DNA of 34,383 bases from assembly GCA_020344375.1 (NCBI GenBank), contig CP070823.1, positions 1,929,463 through 1,963,845 of the forward strand, written 5' to 3'. The notes beneath the pieces are model-generated. The model had not been told where the DNA came from. It made no database searches and saw only the letters and a program-made list of their open reading frames with translations. The position numbers and the translations under genes are program-made. Below are positions 19,721-30,734 of the stretch, piece by piece. Position 1 is the stretch's first letter. Every line of letters begins with the position of its first letter. This DNA comes from Gemmatimonadota bacterium. Lineage in GTDB: Bacteria; Gemmatimonadota; Gemmatimonadetes; Palauibacterales; KS3-K002.

Positions 19721-20027
19721 TCCCTTCCACGGCTGTCATCCAGCCCACCCGTAGTGCGAGTCCAGGCGGGGCCCTCGAGTGACACGTTCCTCTGCGTGTG
19801 GACGAGCGGCTGACTCCTCAGTCTTGTTCCGCGTCCCCAGCCTGGCTTATTTATGGACCTCGGAAGCTTCTAATCCGAAGTAGTCGCGCCTGACCCGGGC
19901 CCGGGCGGACCTGCTTCCGACCGGGCCTCTTTGTCAGGTCGTGGCCGGGGCTTTGTCGGGTGGACTTCATTCCGCGGCTCAATCCGGCCGATTGGACGCT
20001 GACCAAACGGGACAGAGAGGGTACAGT
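19721..20027 (+). other. 307-bp gene-free stretch between fabF and ispF
   Basis: I see no gene here. Visible structure: a small hairpin GGCTG-TCATC-CAGCC at 19731-19745 just after the fabF stop, without a U-run. An 8-bp inverted repeat is at 19860-19867 (TCGGAAGC) and 19913-19920 (GCTTCCGA). A short stem TCGGA/TCCGA at 19860-19878 uses the same left arm, so the two would compete. A 12-bp palindrome CCCGGGCCCGGG is at 19894-19905. It may hold the end of the fab transcript and the promoter of ispF, but no good promoter is visible. Confidence 0.4.
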
Positions 20028-20519
20028 ATGCGCGTCGGGATCGGGTTTGACGTTCACCGCTTCGGCCCAGAGCGTCGCCTCATCCTCGCCGGCCTCGAGT
20101 TCGATGAGGAGCCCGGCCTGCTCGGGCATAGTGACGCGGATGTGCTCACCCATGCGGTGATCGATGCCCTTCTTGGTGCCGCGGGACTGGGTGACATTGG
20201 TCAGCATTTCCCTGACAGCGACGAGCGGTGGCGCGATGCCTCCTCGATCGAGATGCTCATGGCGGTCCGGCGAATGCTGGAGGCCCGGAACTACCAGCCC
20301 GTGAACGTGGACGTGTCGCTGGTGGCGGAACGCCCCCGACTTGCCGCGAGAGTGGAAGCGATGCGGGAGAGCCTGGCGTCCGCGCTCGGCATCGCACCCG
20401 CCTTCGTCTCCATCAAAGCCACCACCGCCGAGGGTCTGGGAGCTCTGGGGCGAGGGGAGGGCATTGCCGCCTGGGCGGTTGCCTTGATCGACCGCCTCGA
20501 AGTTCCCGAGCTCCCCTAG
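20028..20519 (+). CDS. ispF: 2-C-methyl-D-erythritol 2,4-cyclodiphosphate synthase
   Basis: Cyclises the CDP-methylerythritol phosphate intermediate in the MEP isoprenoid pathway. The protein has 163 residues, a normal length. It starts MRVGIGFDVHRFG, which supplies metal ligands Asp8 and His10. The third ligand is His42 in DADVLTHAVIDALLGAAGLGDIG. HFPDSD and the C-terminal KATTAEGLGALGRGEGI are also typical. The frame is open to 19941, but the ATG at 20028 is the family start. A GAGAGGG site lies about 7 bp upstream. ispD is not in the window. Confidence 0.97.
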   Translation: MRVGIGFDVHRFGPERRLILAGLEFDEEPGLLGHSDADVLTHAVIDALLGAAGLGDIGQHFPDSDERWRDASSIEMLMAVRRMLEARNYQPVNVDVSLVAERPRLAARVEAMRESLASALGIAPAFVSIKATTAEGLGALGRGEGIAAWAVALIDRLEVPELP

Positions 20520-20531
20520 GGGAACGGAGCG

Positions 20532-21236
20532 TTGAACGGACTGTGGTTGGCGCTGGCTGCCGAGTTCGCCGGTGATTGGCTGATCGAGGCGTCCGAGATC
20601 GAGGGCGTCCTTGAGCAACTGGCGTCCCTGGCACCGCGGTGGACCTATATCGTCCTGGCAGCTGGCGTCGCTATCGAGAACTTCTTCCCACCCGTGCCCG
20701 CGGACACGTTTGTCGTCTTCGGCGCGTTTCTCTCGGTGGAAGGTCGGGTCACCGGCCTCGGCGTTTTCCTGATCACCTGGCCCGTCAACACCGCCAGCGC
20801 TCTCCTGAACTACGGTTTGGCGCGCCGTTGGGGTCGTGGGTTGCTCGGCACAAGGCCGGGACGTTGGATACTAAGACCGCGACAGCTGGAGAGGTTGGCA
20901 GGGCTATACAACGCGCATGGGAGCAAGATCATCTTTGCCAGCCGGTTCCTGCCTGCCTTTCGGGTGCTCGTTCCGGTCTTCGCAGGTATCAGCCACCTGG
21001 CTTTCTGGCGCACGGCGGTTCCCCTCGCTGCCGCCTCAGCGATCTGGTATGGAGTGCTTGTATATGCCGGGGCAATGCTGGGACGTAATTGGCGTGTACT
21101 CCTGCCGGCGCTCAACGAGGTCAATACGCTGCTCCTTGTAGTCGCGACTGTCCTCGCCGTATTCCTTGTGGTTGTCTGGTGGAGAACCCGTCATCACGCG
21201 CCAGACGCGGTAAGTGGGGAAGGTGGGAGGCCGTGA
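20532..21236 (+). CDS. DedA family (VTT domain) membrane protein
   Basis: Integral membrane protein of the DedA/VTT family, 234 residues. Members act as lipid flippases or transporters; undecaprenyl phosphate and phosphatidylethanolamine are known substrates of some. The conserved re-entrant motif is AIENFFPPVPADTFVVFGAF (about 47-66). The second motif is IIFASRFLPAFRVLVPVFAG (133-152) with its two arginines. Several long hydrophobic segments follow. The start is a TTG at 20532, 12 bp after ispF, preceded by AGGGGAACGGAG. An in-frame ATG is lacking upstream. It overlaps the recombinase gene by 4 bp. Substrate cannot be told. Confidence 0.88.
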   Translation: MNGLWLALAAEFAGDWLIEASEIEGVLEQLASLAPRWTYIVLAAGVAIENFFPPVPADTFVVFGAFLSVEGRVTGLGVFLITWPVNTASALLNYGLARRWGRGLLGTRPGRWILRPRQLERLAGLYNAHGSKIIFASRFLPAFRVLVPVFAGISHLAFWRTAVPLAAASAIWYGVLVYAGAMLGRNWRVLLPALNEVNTLLLVVATVLAVFLVVVWWRTRHHAPDAVSGEGGRP

Positions 21237-22147
21237 AGGGGGAGACCGCTCGAAGTTTTTATCTTGAGAGGTTCGAGGACTACTTGCGGTTCGAGCGGGG
21301 GCTCTCATCGATGACCGCGGCGGCATACGCTTCCGATCTGGCGCAGTTCGTGACGTTCGTCGAGGGCCGCGGATTCGACTTGCCTGGGGAAGTGAGCCTG
21401 GGTGAGCTGCGCGCGTTCGTCTATCACCTCAAGGAATCGGGCCAGGCACCGAGCAGCATTCGCCGCAAACTCTCGGCCCTACGCAGCTACTTTGGATTCC
21501 TACAGGCAGAGGGGATCATCAGGTCCGACCCCAGCGAGCTCCTCGAGGGCCCCAGGACCGGTCGCCAACTGCCCACCGTCCTCACACCAGCCGAGATCGA
21601 AAGCCTGCTTGCCGTGCCGGAGGGCGACAGCCCTCTGGCGATCCGTGATTGGGCGATGCTTGAGCTCATGTACGCTACCGGTGTGCGGATCTCGGAGGTC
21701 GTCTCGCTCCGGCTCAGGGATCTCGATCTCGACGAACGGCTTGTCAGGGTGCGTGGCAAGGGCGCTAAGGAGAGAATCGTGCCTTTCGGTCGAGCCGCGC
21801 TCGAAGCCCTGGGCAGATACTTGCAGGATGCCCGCCCCGTGCTCTCGCGCGCGACTCGCAAGGGCGGCGAGGGCGTGCTGTTCTTGGCACGCCGAGGTCG
21901 CGGCCTCACGCGCAAGGGCGCTTGGGGCATCGTGCGCCGTCGCGTCGCGGCAGCGGGCATTCACAAGCGTGTAACCCCCCACACCCTGCGTCATACCTTC
22001 GCGACCCACCTGCTTCAGGGCGGCGCCGACATCGCGGCCGTACAGGAGATGTTGGGACACGCGGACATCTCTACGACTCAGATCTACACTCATCTTGATC
22101 GCACCTACCTAAGCGAAGTGCACCGGCAGTACCACCCTCGGGCCTGA
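21233..22147 (+). CDS. xerD: Tyrosine recombinase XerC/XerD
   Basis: Site-specific recombinase that resolves chromosome dimers at dif during division. The protein has 304 residues, standard for Xer. It has an N-terminal SAM-like DNA-binding domain (about 5-95) and a C-terminal catalytic domain. Catalytic residues are Arg152 in ATGVRISEVVSL, a lysine in RGKGAKER (176 or 179), His250 and Arg253 in TPHTLRHTFATHLLQGG, His276 in LGHADISTTQIYTHLD, and Tyr285. The start is the GTG at 21233, overlapping the DedA stop (GTGA), with GGTGGGAGG upstream. The frame is open to 21089, but that is DedA coding sequence. XerD is favoured over XerC on general resemblance only. No phage genes flank it. Confidence 0.88.
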   Translation: MKGETARSFYLERFEDYLRFERGLSSMTAAAYASDLAQFVTFVEGRGFDLPGEVSLGELRAFVYHLKESGQAPSSIRRKLSALRSYFGFLQAEGIIRSDPSELLEGPRTGRQLPTVLTPAEIESLLAVPEGDSPLAIRDWAMLELMYATGVRISEVVSLRLRDLDLDERLVRVRGKGAKERIVPFGRAALEALGRYLQDARPVLSRATRKGGEGVLFLARRGRGLTRKGAWGIVRRRVAAAGIHKRVTPHTLRHTFATHLLQGGADIAAVQEMLGHADISTTQIYTHLDRTYLSEVHRQYHPRA

Positions 22148-22209
22148 GAGGGGAGCTAGAAGCCGATCGAGACAGCGATTAGTAACTAGCCTTTCTATTG
22201 ATAGATAGC

Positions 22210-22215
22210 TAATAT
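22210..22215 (+). promoter_or_regulatory. Candidate -10 element, leaderless start of the beta-barrel gene
   Basis: TAATAT lies 6 nt before the ATG at 22222 in a notably A+T-rich 74-bp gap (22148-22221). No ribosome binding site precedes the ATG. A TATAAC overlaps it at 22213-22218. No -35 box at 16-18 bp is convincing. ATTAG (22178-22182) and CTAAT (22209-22213) form a short inverted repeat that includes part of the hexamer and might be an operator. Confidence 0.4.
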
Positions 22216-22221
22216 AACCTC

Positions 22222-23805
22222 ATGCAGCTTCTCTACTCAGATCGACCTTCGGGCTGTTCGCTCGCTTCCTGGCGGTGGCTGACACCCCGGGCGCCGAGAG
22301 GTGGATGGCTGGGACTCGGGGCGCTCCTCGCGGTTATCGGTGTTAGTTTGGCCGGAGGTGCTTTGGAGGCGTCGGCGCAGGCGGTGATGTTTGAGCGGGG
22401 GCGGGGTGGATTGCCGTTGGCGGATGAGGCAGTTGAGCGTGTTCTGGCGCGGGGTCAGTACCGGGTGCTGACACGGGACACGATTCTGGGCGCGGGTGAG
22501 GTGATCGGGGGGGACGTAGTGGTGTTGCAGGCGACGCTGCGAATCGAGGGCCACATCGAAGGAGATCTGATTGCGGTTCGGAGCGACGTGTTCGCGCGGC
22601 CGGGCGGCCAGATGGACGGGGCGGTGGTGGTGTTGGGGGGCGGTTTCTACGGTTCGTCTCTGGCGAAGCTGGGGTCATCTCCCGTGGATGCGTCCCGCTA
22701 TAGCTATGAGGTGGGGGAGCGTGAGGCGGGAGCGTACGTCATCAGGGCACCGGGAGGGAGGGTTGGCGTGAAGCTTCCTGGGCTCTACGGCCTCGGTTTC
22801 CCAACCTACGATCGCGTCAATGGGCTGACCTTGACTTGGAACGTCGAGCTACAGGGGGGCCAAGCGGGTTGGCTCCCTGAAGCGGGCGGACGAATCGGCT
22901 ATCGGAGCGAGCGGACGGATGTGGACGGCGATCTGGAACTCCGGTGGCCATTCGGTCGCCACGCTCTCTCAGTGCGCGGCGGTCTGACCGTCAGGTCGAA
23001 CGACCGCTGGATCAACGGCGACATGGAGAACTCGCTCTACAGCCTCACAGGGGGCGTGGACACCCGCAACTACTACGAGGCCCGTTTTGCCGAGGCTGCT
23101 CTTCACTTGGGTCATGGGACGCGTCTGCGCTGGTCGCACGATCTGGCGGTGGGCTGGGAGCGAGCGCGGTCGCTGGAGGATAGGGATCCGTTCTCGATCT
23201 TCTCGGTTCGCGGGGGCTTCCAGCGCAATCCGCCCGTTCGCGAGGCGGACATCGTTAGCCTCGCCCTTGTGAGTGCGGTGCAGACCTCGGACCGAAGCCG
23301 AGTGTCTCTTGACCTCACTCTAAGTCTGGAAGTAGCGGAACGTGACGTCGCGGGCGACCTCTCGTTCACTGTGCTCGCCGCTACCGCGCGGGGTGTTATC
23401 GGCACGGTCGGCGACCAGAGTCTGATCCTCCAGGGGTTTGGGCAGATTCCCGGGTCTGCGGGAGCGCCCCCGCAGCGCTGGCGTGCCTTGGGCGGCTGGG
23501 GGACGCTTCCCACGCTCGTGCCGGGTGAAAGGTGGGGGGATTCCAGCTGGTGGCTGGCAGCCACGTACCGCGTGCCGTTGCCGTGGGGTCTGGGCGTGCT
23601 CGGGCGGGTCGTGCCGTGGCTGGAGTACGCAGTTGGGAATGCCTGGGTGGATGACGATGAGCGCCCAACAGCGGTCCATAACCTTGGCTTGGGGGTCTCG
23701 CTGGGACGTCTTGGGGCTGCGTTATTCGCGGACCCCGGGGACGAGTTCGAGACCTTCCTCGTCCTGGGCTTTTCCCCGCGTCGCTGGCCCGGGCGGGGAC
23801 GCTAA
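22222..23805 (+). CDS. Exported protein with bactofilin-like N-terminal part and probable beta-barrel
   Basis: I do not recognise a named family. The 527-residue protein has a long basic N-region, then a hydrophobic segment (about 31-48) ending in ASAQA, which looks like a signal peptide. Residues about 85-145 read as short repeats (GEVIGGDVVVLQATLRIEGHI, EGDLIAVRSDVFARPGGQMDG, VVVLGGGFYGS), like the bactofilin/polymer-forming beta-helix. From about 190 to the end, alternating polar and hydrophobic residues with many Tyr, Trp and Gly (YEARFAEAALHLG, LRWSHDLAVGWERA, SWWLAATYRVPLPWG) suggest an outer-membrane beta-barrel. The closing strand is FETFLVLGFS, with a short basic tail. It lies alone between xerD and the Kdo operon. 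A surface-antigen barrel is the best guess. Confidence 0.6.
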   Translation: MQLLYSDRPSGCSLASWRWLTPRAPRGGWLGLGALLAVIGVSLAGGALEASAQAVMFERGRGGLPLADEAVERVLARGQYRVLTRDTILGAGEVIGGDVVVLQATLRIEGHIEGDLIAVRSDVFARPGGQMDGAVVVLGGGFYGSSLAKLGSSPVDASRYSYEVGEREAGAYVIRAPGGRVGVKLPGLYGLGFPTYDRVNGLTLTWNVELQGGQAGWLPEAGGRIGYRSERTDVDGDLELRWPFGRHALSVRGGLTVRSNDRWINGDMENSLYSLTGGVDTRNYYEARFAEAALHLGHGTRLRWSHDLAVGWERARSLEDRDPFSIFSVRGGFQRNPPVREADIVSLALVSAVQTSDRSRVSLDLTLSLEVAERDVAGDLSFTVLAATARGVIGTVGDQSLILQGFGQIPGSAGAPPQRWRALGGWGTLPTLVPGERWGDSSWWLAATYRVPLPWGLGVLGRVVPWLEYAVGNAWVDDDERPTAVHNLGLGVSLGRLGAALFADPGDEFETFLVLGFSPRRWPGRGR

Positions 23806-23814
23806 CGGCCAGTT

Positions 23815-23843
23815 TTGACAACCGTTTAACGGGTTGTTATGAT
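23815..23843 (+). promoter_or_regulatory. Strong sigma-70-type promoter of the Kdo/LPS-export operon
   Basis: TTGACA at 23815-23820 and TATGAT at 23838-23843 are separated by exactly 17 bp: a perfect -35 and a 5/6 -10. The predicted +1 is about G23850. It sits in a short A+T-rich island just after the barrel gene stop. It is the only clear promoter before a ten-gene run that reaches the end of the window. Confidence 0.85.
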
Positions 23844-23856
23844 ATTGGCGTGAAAA

Positions 23857-26327
<2,471 letters not shown>

Positions 26328-29270: not shown

Positions 29271-30734
29271 GTGAGAAGGCTGCTAGCGTTCGGTATCGTC
29301 TCGCTACTCATCGCTCTGGCGCCGCCAGGCGCTCAGCAACGGGAGCGTTGTCAGCTGGAGATTGTCACGACGCCCGGTACGGTGACGCACTTGACCAAGC
29401 TCGGTGAAGGTGACACTCGGCTCGACGCGGGTGGCGGGGTGGAGGCGACCTGTGGCGGCAAGTGGGTGCGGGCTGACAGCGTGTCGTGGTTCGAAGGACG
29501 CGGTGAGCTCTACCTATTCGGCGATGTGGAGTACCGGGATGCAGGCCGCACGCTGGAGGCAGACCAGGCCACGTACTACCGCGACGAGGACCGAGTGCGC
29601 CCGGAAGGAAACGTGCAGCTCACAGACCACTCAAGCGGATCGACTCTGAAGGGACCGCTGCTCGACTACTATCCGCAGAACGAGAGTCGCCCGGTCGAGC
29701 GGATATTAGCGCCCGGACGCCCGCATCTCACGTTCAACCCGGATACAACCGGTGGCGATAACACCGAACCGTTCGAGGTAGACGCTGACCGCATGCACAT
29801 CTACGGTGACTCGGCGATCGCCGGAGCGGGCCGCGTTGTCGTGGTAAGGGGAGACCTGAACGCCTACGGGGATTCGCTGGACCTGGACATGGGCCGTGGT
29901 CAGCTCTGGTTGCTCAGGCAGCCCAGCGTCGAAGCCAACCAGATGCACCTACGGGGTGACTCGATCCTCGTGCTGATGGAGGATCAGCAGCTCCGTGAGA
30001 TACTCGCCTGGCCGAACGGATGGGCAGAGGGGCGCGAACTGTCCCTGACCGCACCTGCTCTGCGCCTGTACGTCGAGGCGGAGGAGATCACCCGAGCCGT
30101 CGCCTCAGCAGGAGAGCCCGCGCGGACGGGTGCGGTCGATGTGGCCGGGCGCGAGCCCTGGGCTCGCAGCGAGAGCCAGGACTATGTCCTCGTGGCAGAC
30201 TCCATCGACATACGGCGGCCCGCTGGCCAGCTGGAGCGGGTGATCGCCGTGCGTCGAGCCCGCGCCAGCAGAGTGCAGCCTGTAGTGCCGGGCGACACCC
30301 TTCTGGGCAGCGATTGGCTGGTGGGGGACACGATCACTGGGTACTTCGCGCTCGTGGATTCTGTGCCTGCCACCGTTGGGGAGGTCGAGCTCAGACGCTT
30401 GGTTTCGGCCGGGGACGCGCGCGCCCTCTATCACTTGCGCGATCAGGCGGGCGAAGGCGAGGCTGCCAACCAGCCGGCGGTGAACTACGTCATCGGACGT
30501 GTGGTGACACTCTGGTTGGAGGCTGGCGACGTTGAAGATGCGCAGGTAGTTGGCCCGGCGATCGGCGTCTACAACGAGCCGCTCCCGGCGGCGATGGACG
30601 GCGATAGCCTGGGTCTGGTCCCGGACTCGCTCGCCCAAGCGGCGCAGGACACGGCGGGCGTGCCGCGCGATTCGGTCGAGGGTTCTGAGACCGACACGGT
30701 TGTTGCGCCAACCGCAGAGGCGAGGTCACGATGA
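29271..30734 (+). CDS. OstA/LptA-like periplasmic protein
   Basis: Probable periplasmic LPS-bridge protein. The 487 residues make it far longer than E. coli LptA (185) and shorter than LptD. A signal peptide ([21 protein letters not shown]) is followed by OstA-type repeats: [71 protein letters not shown] (to about residue 120). Similar strands recur at about 165-260 ([33 protein letters not shown]). The C-terminal 60 residues are acidic and rich in Asp, Ala and Gly, probably disordered. There is no visible LptD-type barrel. The GTG start is 1 bp after lptC and the stop overlaps lptB (ATGA). It may act as a long LptA or as the N-terminal part of a split LptD. Confidence 0.78.

Follow-up and report, generated by a model that had tools for sequence, protein, structure and literature searches.

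The window, by which we mean the whole stretch of 34,383 nucleotides that was analysed, lies in a single-contig genome of 3.04 Mb (87.6% complete) and carries, in this order, fabF, a VTT-domain gene, xer, the gene studied here, kdsB, pyrG, kdsA, a SIS/CBS gene (kdsD-like), lptC-like, lptA-like and lptB-like genes and rpoN, where the names of the neighbours, including the kds and lpt ones, were assigned from Pfam domains. The gene itself is an open reading frame of 527 amino acids on the forward strand (22222-23805) with an ATG start; it is preceded by its conserved upstream neighbour, a xer-type tyrosine recombinase (21089-22147, +), and followed by a kdsB-like cytidylyltransferase (23857-24672, +). 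Compared over 520 codons with the copy from the same genus (L003), it gave an NG86 dN of 0.19 and dS of 0.68, with 96, 83 and 200 differences at codon positions 1, 2 and 3, respectively; the gene is under purifying selection and evolves as protein-coding DNA. The first-pass annotation had described an A+T-rich upstream region lacking a ribosome binding site, and we found the same: the intergenic stretch abutting the ATG (22171-22221, +) has a GC content of 35% in these last 51 nt against 63% across the window, and no Shine-Dalgarno sequence was seen before the start codon on inspection of the upstream sequence. Hexamers resembling a -10 element (TAATAT/TATAAC) lie beside the start codon, an arrangement as in a leaderless transcript; because a consensus scan gave no sigma-70 site within 22171-22221, we only infer a promoter there. 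The first 52 residues (22222-22377, +), a hydrophobic stretch ending in ...LEASAQ, plausibly form a signal peptide with cleavage expected after ...EASA or ...EASAQ, and Q53 is invariant in the 21-row family alignment (A1). The gene had also been said to stand alone, and in the window it does, since xer stops at 22147 and a promoter-like site (TTGACA-17-TATGAT, 23815-23843, matching the consensus at 11 of 12 positions) separates its stop codon from kdsB. However, standing alone is not a trait of the family, because in at least two relatives (L036 and L045) the gene and the upstream open reading frame overlap by 4 nt.

Although the protein had been called unrecognised, it is no orphan: it is conserved at a syntenic locus and has a paralogue of the same architecture. 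At E<=0.001, 54 of 60 relatives gave a match, some of them paralogues. When a contig collection was scanned with the single protein, 64 stretches were returned and none was confirmed as a relative; scanning with A1 returned 40 candidate stretches, 34 of which were confirmed. Record titles or taxonomy place all 34 named relatives in Gemmatimonadota, in line with the restricted lineage suggested at first, with the proviso that the scan relied on one short pattern, so that members may occur in other phyla as well. Among 200 Gemmatimonadota genomes, 175 matched A1 at E<=1e-5, and at least 76, paralogues counted in, had a single match spanning both the beta-helix and the barrel. Members occur throughout this phylum at a conserved locus of the order xer, gene, kdsB/pyrG. 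A Xer-type gene lies upstream at 30 of the 34 named loci, and of the other four, three start 33-602 nt before the match and one (L052) has 6 kb without Xer; PyrG and/or KdsB lie downstream at 31 loci, the remaining three ending within ~0.5 kb. Since several loci have pyrG with no kdsB adjoining the gene, the link to Kdo is not a strict one. Two other genes of the window deserve mention. On the reverse strand, a 255-amino-acid open reading frame (19851-20618) with no Pfam match is 32-40% conserved in the same place in L032-L035, L042 and L051 and is probably a real, unnamed gene. The LptA-like protein encoded at 29271-30734 is unusually long (487 amino acids), and LptD_N scored just below its cut-off in it (19.8 versus 20.4 bits).

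An AlphaFold2 model of the mature protein, computed from the window sequence and 31 relatives, reached a mean pLDDT of 89.1 and a pTM of 0.76, and the N-terminal domain modelled alone reached a pLDDT of 92.2 and a pTM of 0.85. The pairing of a bactofilin-like beta-helix with an exported barrel, which the first-pass annotation had proposed and considered unusual, was borne out by these predicted models, in which both parts appear with high confidence, the helix before the barrel; a barrel was predicted, and no cytoplasmic family scored above cut-off in Pfam or NCBIfam, the NCBIfam search with the query giving no match at all. On the strength of the models, the architecture is very probably a signal peptide, a bactofilin-like beta-helix and an Omp85-type barrel. 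Along the forward strand, the predicted parts are the N-terminal domain (residues 53-160, 22378-22701), a linker with short strands (residues 161-194, 22702-22803), the barrel (residues 195-517, 22804-23772) and a short C-terminal tail (residues 518-527, 23773-23805 with the stop codon). By DSSP count the modelled barrel has 15 strands of at least 7 residues and a short first strand, and its loop 3 (residues 260-283, 22999-23070, +) holds a conserved helix with the group motif W..N...NSL...D.RNYY.

In a Foldseek search, the whole model matched 114 PDB chains at E<=0.001 (best E 1.1e-10), and the best 50 of these 114 all belong to the Omp85 superfamily (BamA, TamA, FhaC, CdiB, Toc75/TOC and Sam50/SAM). 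VIA-align superposed the whole model on TamA with Z 22.2 and rmsd 4.8 over 344 aligned residues, on the TamA barrel alone with Z 22.1 and rmsd 3.5 over 278 of 306, and on Deinococcus BamA with Z 21.4 and rmsd 4.2 over 296. Five strands follow the long, presumed loop 6 when counted on the model, as in a 16-strand Omp85 barrel, and a strand layout of this kind would place both the N and the C terminus on the periplasmic side. The predicted barrel is accordingly assigned to the Omp85 type, with which the family shares the fold, the place of loop 6, the base P.QR...GG and an alignable strand-13 region. At the level of Pfam the Omp85 profile (PF01103) does not match the query, nor any of 21 members at E<=1, and profile comparison by hhalign of the query family with the five canonical Omp85 proteins of the genome gave a probability of 97.4 and an E of 1.3e-11. 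Where many Omp85 proteins carry POTRA domains, the family has an N-terminal beta-helix and no POTRA match: no POTRA family was among the Pfam matches of the 21 members, and bactofilins head the fold list, a ranking that does not exclude other folds. Whole-model alignments that reach into the POTRA region from residue 1 were discounted as evidence, because the N-terminal domain alone best matches bactofilin. Weak matches to DUF5686 (PF18939) occur in 7 of 21 members (best E 3.6e-6), none occurs in the query, and nothing in the genome exceeds the cut-off of that profile; a literature search for the word DUF5686 found no paper.

For the N-terminal domain alone, VIA-align ranked the Thermus bactofilin 6rib first (Z 9.8, rmsd 3.2, 78 aligned) and the Thermus bactofilin 6ria second (Z 9.6), followed by BacA 2n3d and antigen 43 (4kh3), both at Z 8.2; a hexapeptide or pentapeptide helix as a better match was rejected on its lower Z. 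Foldseek with this domain gave no match at E<=0.001, and its placement was based on VIA-align and weak profile matches. The bactofilin profile PF04519 matches residues 87-136 of the query at 15 bits, and scored 18.6 bits in a second search, below the cut-off of 27.9, and weak matches to it occur in 16 of 21 members (best E 7e-4). Because the fold matches lead while PF04519 stays below its cut-off, the bactofilin-like reading is correct in fold and weak in sequence, and we assign the modelled domain to the bactofilin-type beta-helices. Its rungs, at residues ~79-159, are capped at one end by a predicted helix (residues 65-77), which would disfavour simple end-to-end stacking. Thus the domain has the same fold as bactofilins and, unlike them, belongs to an exported protein, is fused to a barrel, is helix-capped at one end and scores below the Pfam cut-off; the signal peptide and the barrel argue against a cytoplasmic polymer such as bactofilins form, and the family places a bactofilin-type fold outside the cytoplasm. 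Judged by mean column identity, which was 52% in the alignment of the N-terminal domain (A4) versus 41% in A3, two alignments with differing row sets, the domain is among the better conserved parts of the protein.

The suggestion that this might be a surface protein found no support, because proteins of the Omp85 superfamily, to which the barrel is assigned, normally have their N-terminal domain in the periplasm. A related reading is that the barrel, in the manner of self-translocating patatin-Omp85 proteins (PlpD), carries the beta-helix of the same protein out to the cell surface, to serve there as a surface or adhesion module. Beta-helices are frequent among exported passengers, and the N-terminal model matches antigen 43 on a level with the bactofilin 2n3d; both Thermus bactofilins score above antigen 43, however, and the domain is short, helix-capped and comparatively well conserved, whereas most surface modules are not among the better conserved parts of their proteins. 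We consider such self-translocation improbable.

Omp85 proteins carry the motif (V/I)RG(Y/F) at the tip of loop 6 (L6) and (F/G)xDxG on strand 13, and an arginine-aspartate salt bridge joins the two, R450-D492 in FhaC and closely related in TamA and BamA, as described in an excerpt of PMC4490367. In the query, the loop 6 motif PQRWRALGGWGTLPT (residues 416-431 including the preceding P; 23467-23514, +) replaces (V/I)RG(F/Y), and YAVGNAW (residues 469-475; 23626-23646, +) replaces (F/G)xDxG, with A470 instead of the aspartate. Loop 6 reads TLPT or a variant of it in the query family, and hhalign set GGWGTLPTL opposite the canonical GGLQTLRGYEY. None of the 32 aligned members has arginine at the loop-6 position (P in 23, A in 6, and Y, H and Q in one each), and none has aspartate at the strand-13 position as set by hhalign profile alignment (A in 13, S in 9, R in 6, G in 4). 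The five canonical Omp85 proteins of the same genome all keep RGY (alignment A6). Unlike Omp85 proteins such as BamA and TamA, the family has neither RG(F/Y) in loop 6 nor the aspartate on strand 13, and these alignments have shown both lid-lock residues to be replaced throughout it. This loss makes a role as a standard insertase or translocase less likely.

The paralogue, at G000:C1:1377290-1378966 (L002/L081) in the same genome, has the same two-part build, and hhalign of the query family against the paralogue family covered both parts with a probability of 99.9 and an E of 9.6e-37. It differs from the query in its locus and in scoring above the Pfam Omp85 cut-off (39.6 versus 24 bits); Pfam Omp85 matches each of the seven members in the alignment of its family (best E 4e-12), and the profile of this family found the Fusobacterium BamA structure 9ccg at E 9.2e-8. 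In total, the genome has 10 Omp85 matches at E<=1, the paralogue included, 8 of them above cut-off. Loop 6 of the paralogue family reads SLPGY, SLPGF or SLPAY in 7/7, so that the arginine is lost here too, and in contrast to the query the strand-13 motif FYDAG is retained, in at least four of the seven by a strict pattern. From these sequences, the arginine appears to have been lost first and the aspartate second.

At 7 of the 34 loci (L056-L062) the protein consists of a signal peptide, a short linker and the barrel, with no bactofilin-like domain. The Xer-type gene lies upstream at six of them, L057 beginning at a contig edge, and kdsB/pyrG lies downstream at all seven. A tree of 39 barrels, with the paralogues as the root and with some long branches, grouped the six barrel-only proteins used into one clade (support 100/100) within the bactofilin-bearing family; support for the fork that places them there was 87/90. 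That the barrel-only proteins are unrelated to the family was rejected on the shared locus neighbours and the tree position, and the simplest reading is a single loss of the bactofilin-like domain. A domain that one clade can dispense with might be a mere plug or folding aid with no separate function in a simple pore. This we regard as very improbable, since the fold matches listed are Omp85 proteins with no porins among them and the domain is well conserved outside the barrel-only clade. With domain-less versions at the same locus in some genomes, the role of the domain can be tested by swapping.

Our best overall explanation, held at about even chances, is an Omp85-derived outer-membrane barrel with a periplasmic docking domain replacing POTRA, engaged in envelope assembly or scaffolding. 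Here the barrel would anchor the protein in the outer membrane or serve as a specialised assembly aid, not being a standard insertase or translocase, and the N-terminal beta-helix would lie in the periplasm and offer a docking platform to a partner, either another envelope protein or the cell wall. Taken by itself, the functional part of this (docking domain, anchor or specialised assembly aid) is tentative, and we would put it at somewhat below even chances. The neighbourhood hints at envelope assembly, and its kds/lpt type could suit a part in assembling lipopolysaccharide or outer-membrane proteins instead of an anchoring role. Such genes adjoin the gene in most relatives, the top structural matches are TamA and BamA, and Heinz and Lithgow (2014) propose assembly roles for POTRA-less Omp85 proteins in an excerpt of their paper (PMC4104836), all of which would suit a factor that, like BamA or TamA, actively assembles membrane proteins or lipids, with the bactofilin-like domain acting as POTRA and another contact replacing the lid lock. 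Against this stand the absence of both lid-lock residues from all 32 aligned members, the several other Omp85 matches and the separate LptD that the genome holds, and the clade that dispenses with the N-terminal domain, and we judge such a factor to be rather unlikely. A role of the query as a replacement of LptD was rejected because a separate LptD is present elsewhere in the genome: the only match to PF04453 and LptD_2 is a separate 879-amino-acid frame (E 2.8e-5 and 9.2e-37).

The combination of a bactofilin-like beta-helix with a lock-less Omp85 barrel appears to be new. Heinz and Lithgow (2014) distinguished ten Omp85/TpsB subfamilies, including POTRA-less WD40, patatin-like, metalloprotease and noNterm ones (PMC4104836); a bactofilin-type architecture is not described in the excerpt of that paper. 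A literature search joining bactofilin with Omp85, with bioRxiv outside its range, found nothing, and titles and abstract beginnings in the literature on bactofilin, beta-barrel and outer membrane report no such fusion. Since the characterised Omp85 proteins named above (BamA, TamA and others) work with POTRA domains and the lid lock, a family found across the phylum that joins the barrel to a beta-helix in place of POTRA and has no lid lock amounts to a natural experiment showing which parts are needed for what. In a bolder and decidedly doubtful version, exported bactofilin-type beta-helices on degenerate Omp85 barrels would form a scaffold under the outer membrane of Gemmatimonadota, in which the domain could, by stacking or polymerising within the periplasm, organise the outer membrane or the connection between it and the wall. 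If true, this would give the bactofilin skeleton of the cytoplasm an equivalent in the periplasm.

Elsewhere in the genome, beside the paralogue (G000:C1:1377290-1382285, L002, L076), we observed a second Omp85-type gene, a 745-amino-acid frame that keeps RGY and matches DUF5686 weakly, as well as an adjoining NtrC-like regulator, recognised by eye. Furthermore, the frame at 739-2376 of L067 (G000:C1 near 2605079) begins with a signal-like N-terminus, continues with a segment resembling bactofilin (PF04519, 21.9 bits) and then shows apparent transmembrane helices; the genome may employ exported bactofilin-like domains in more than one setting.
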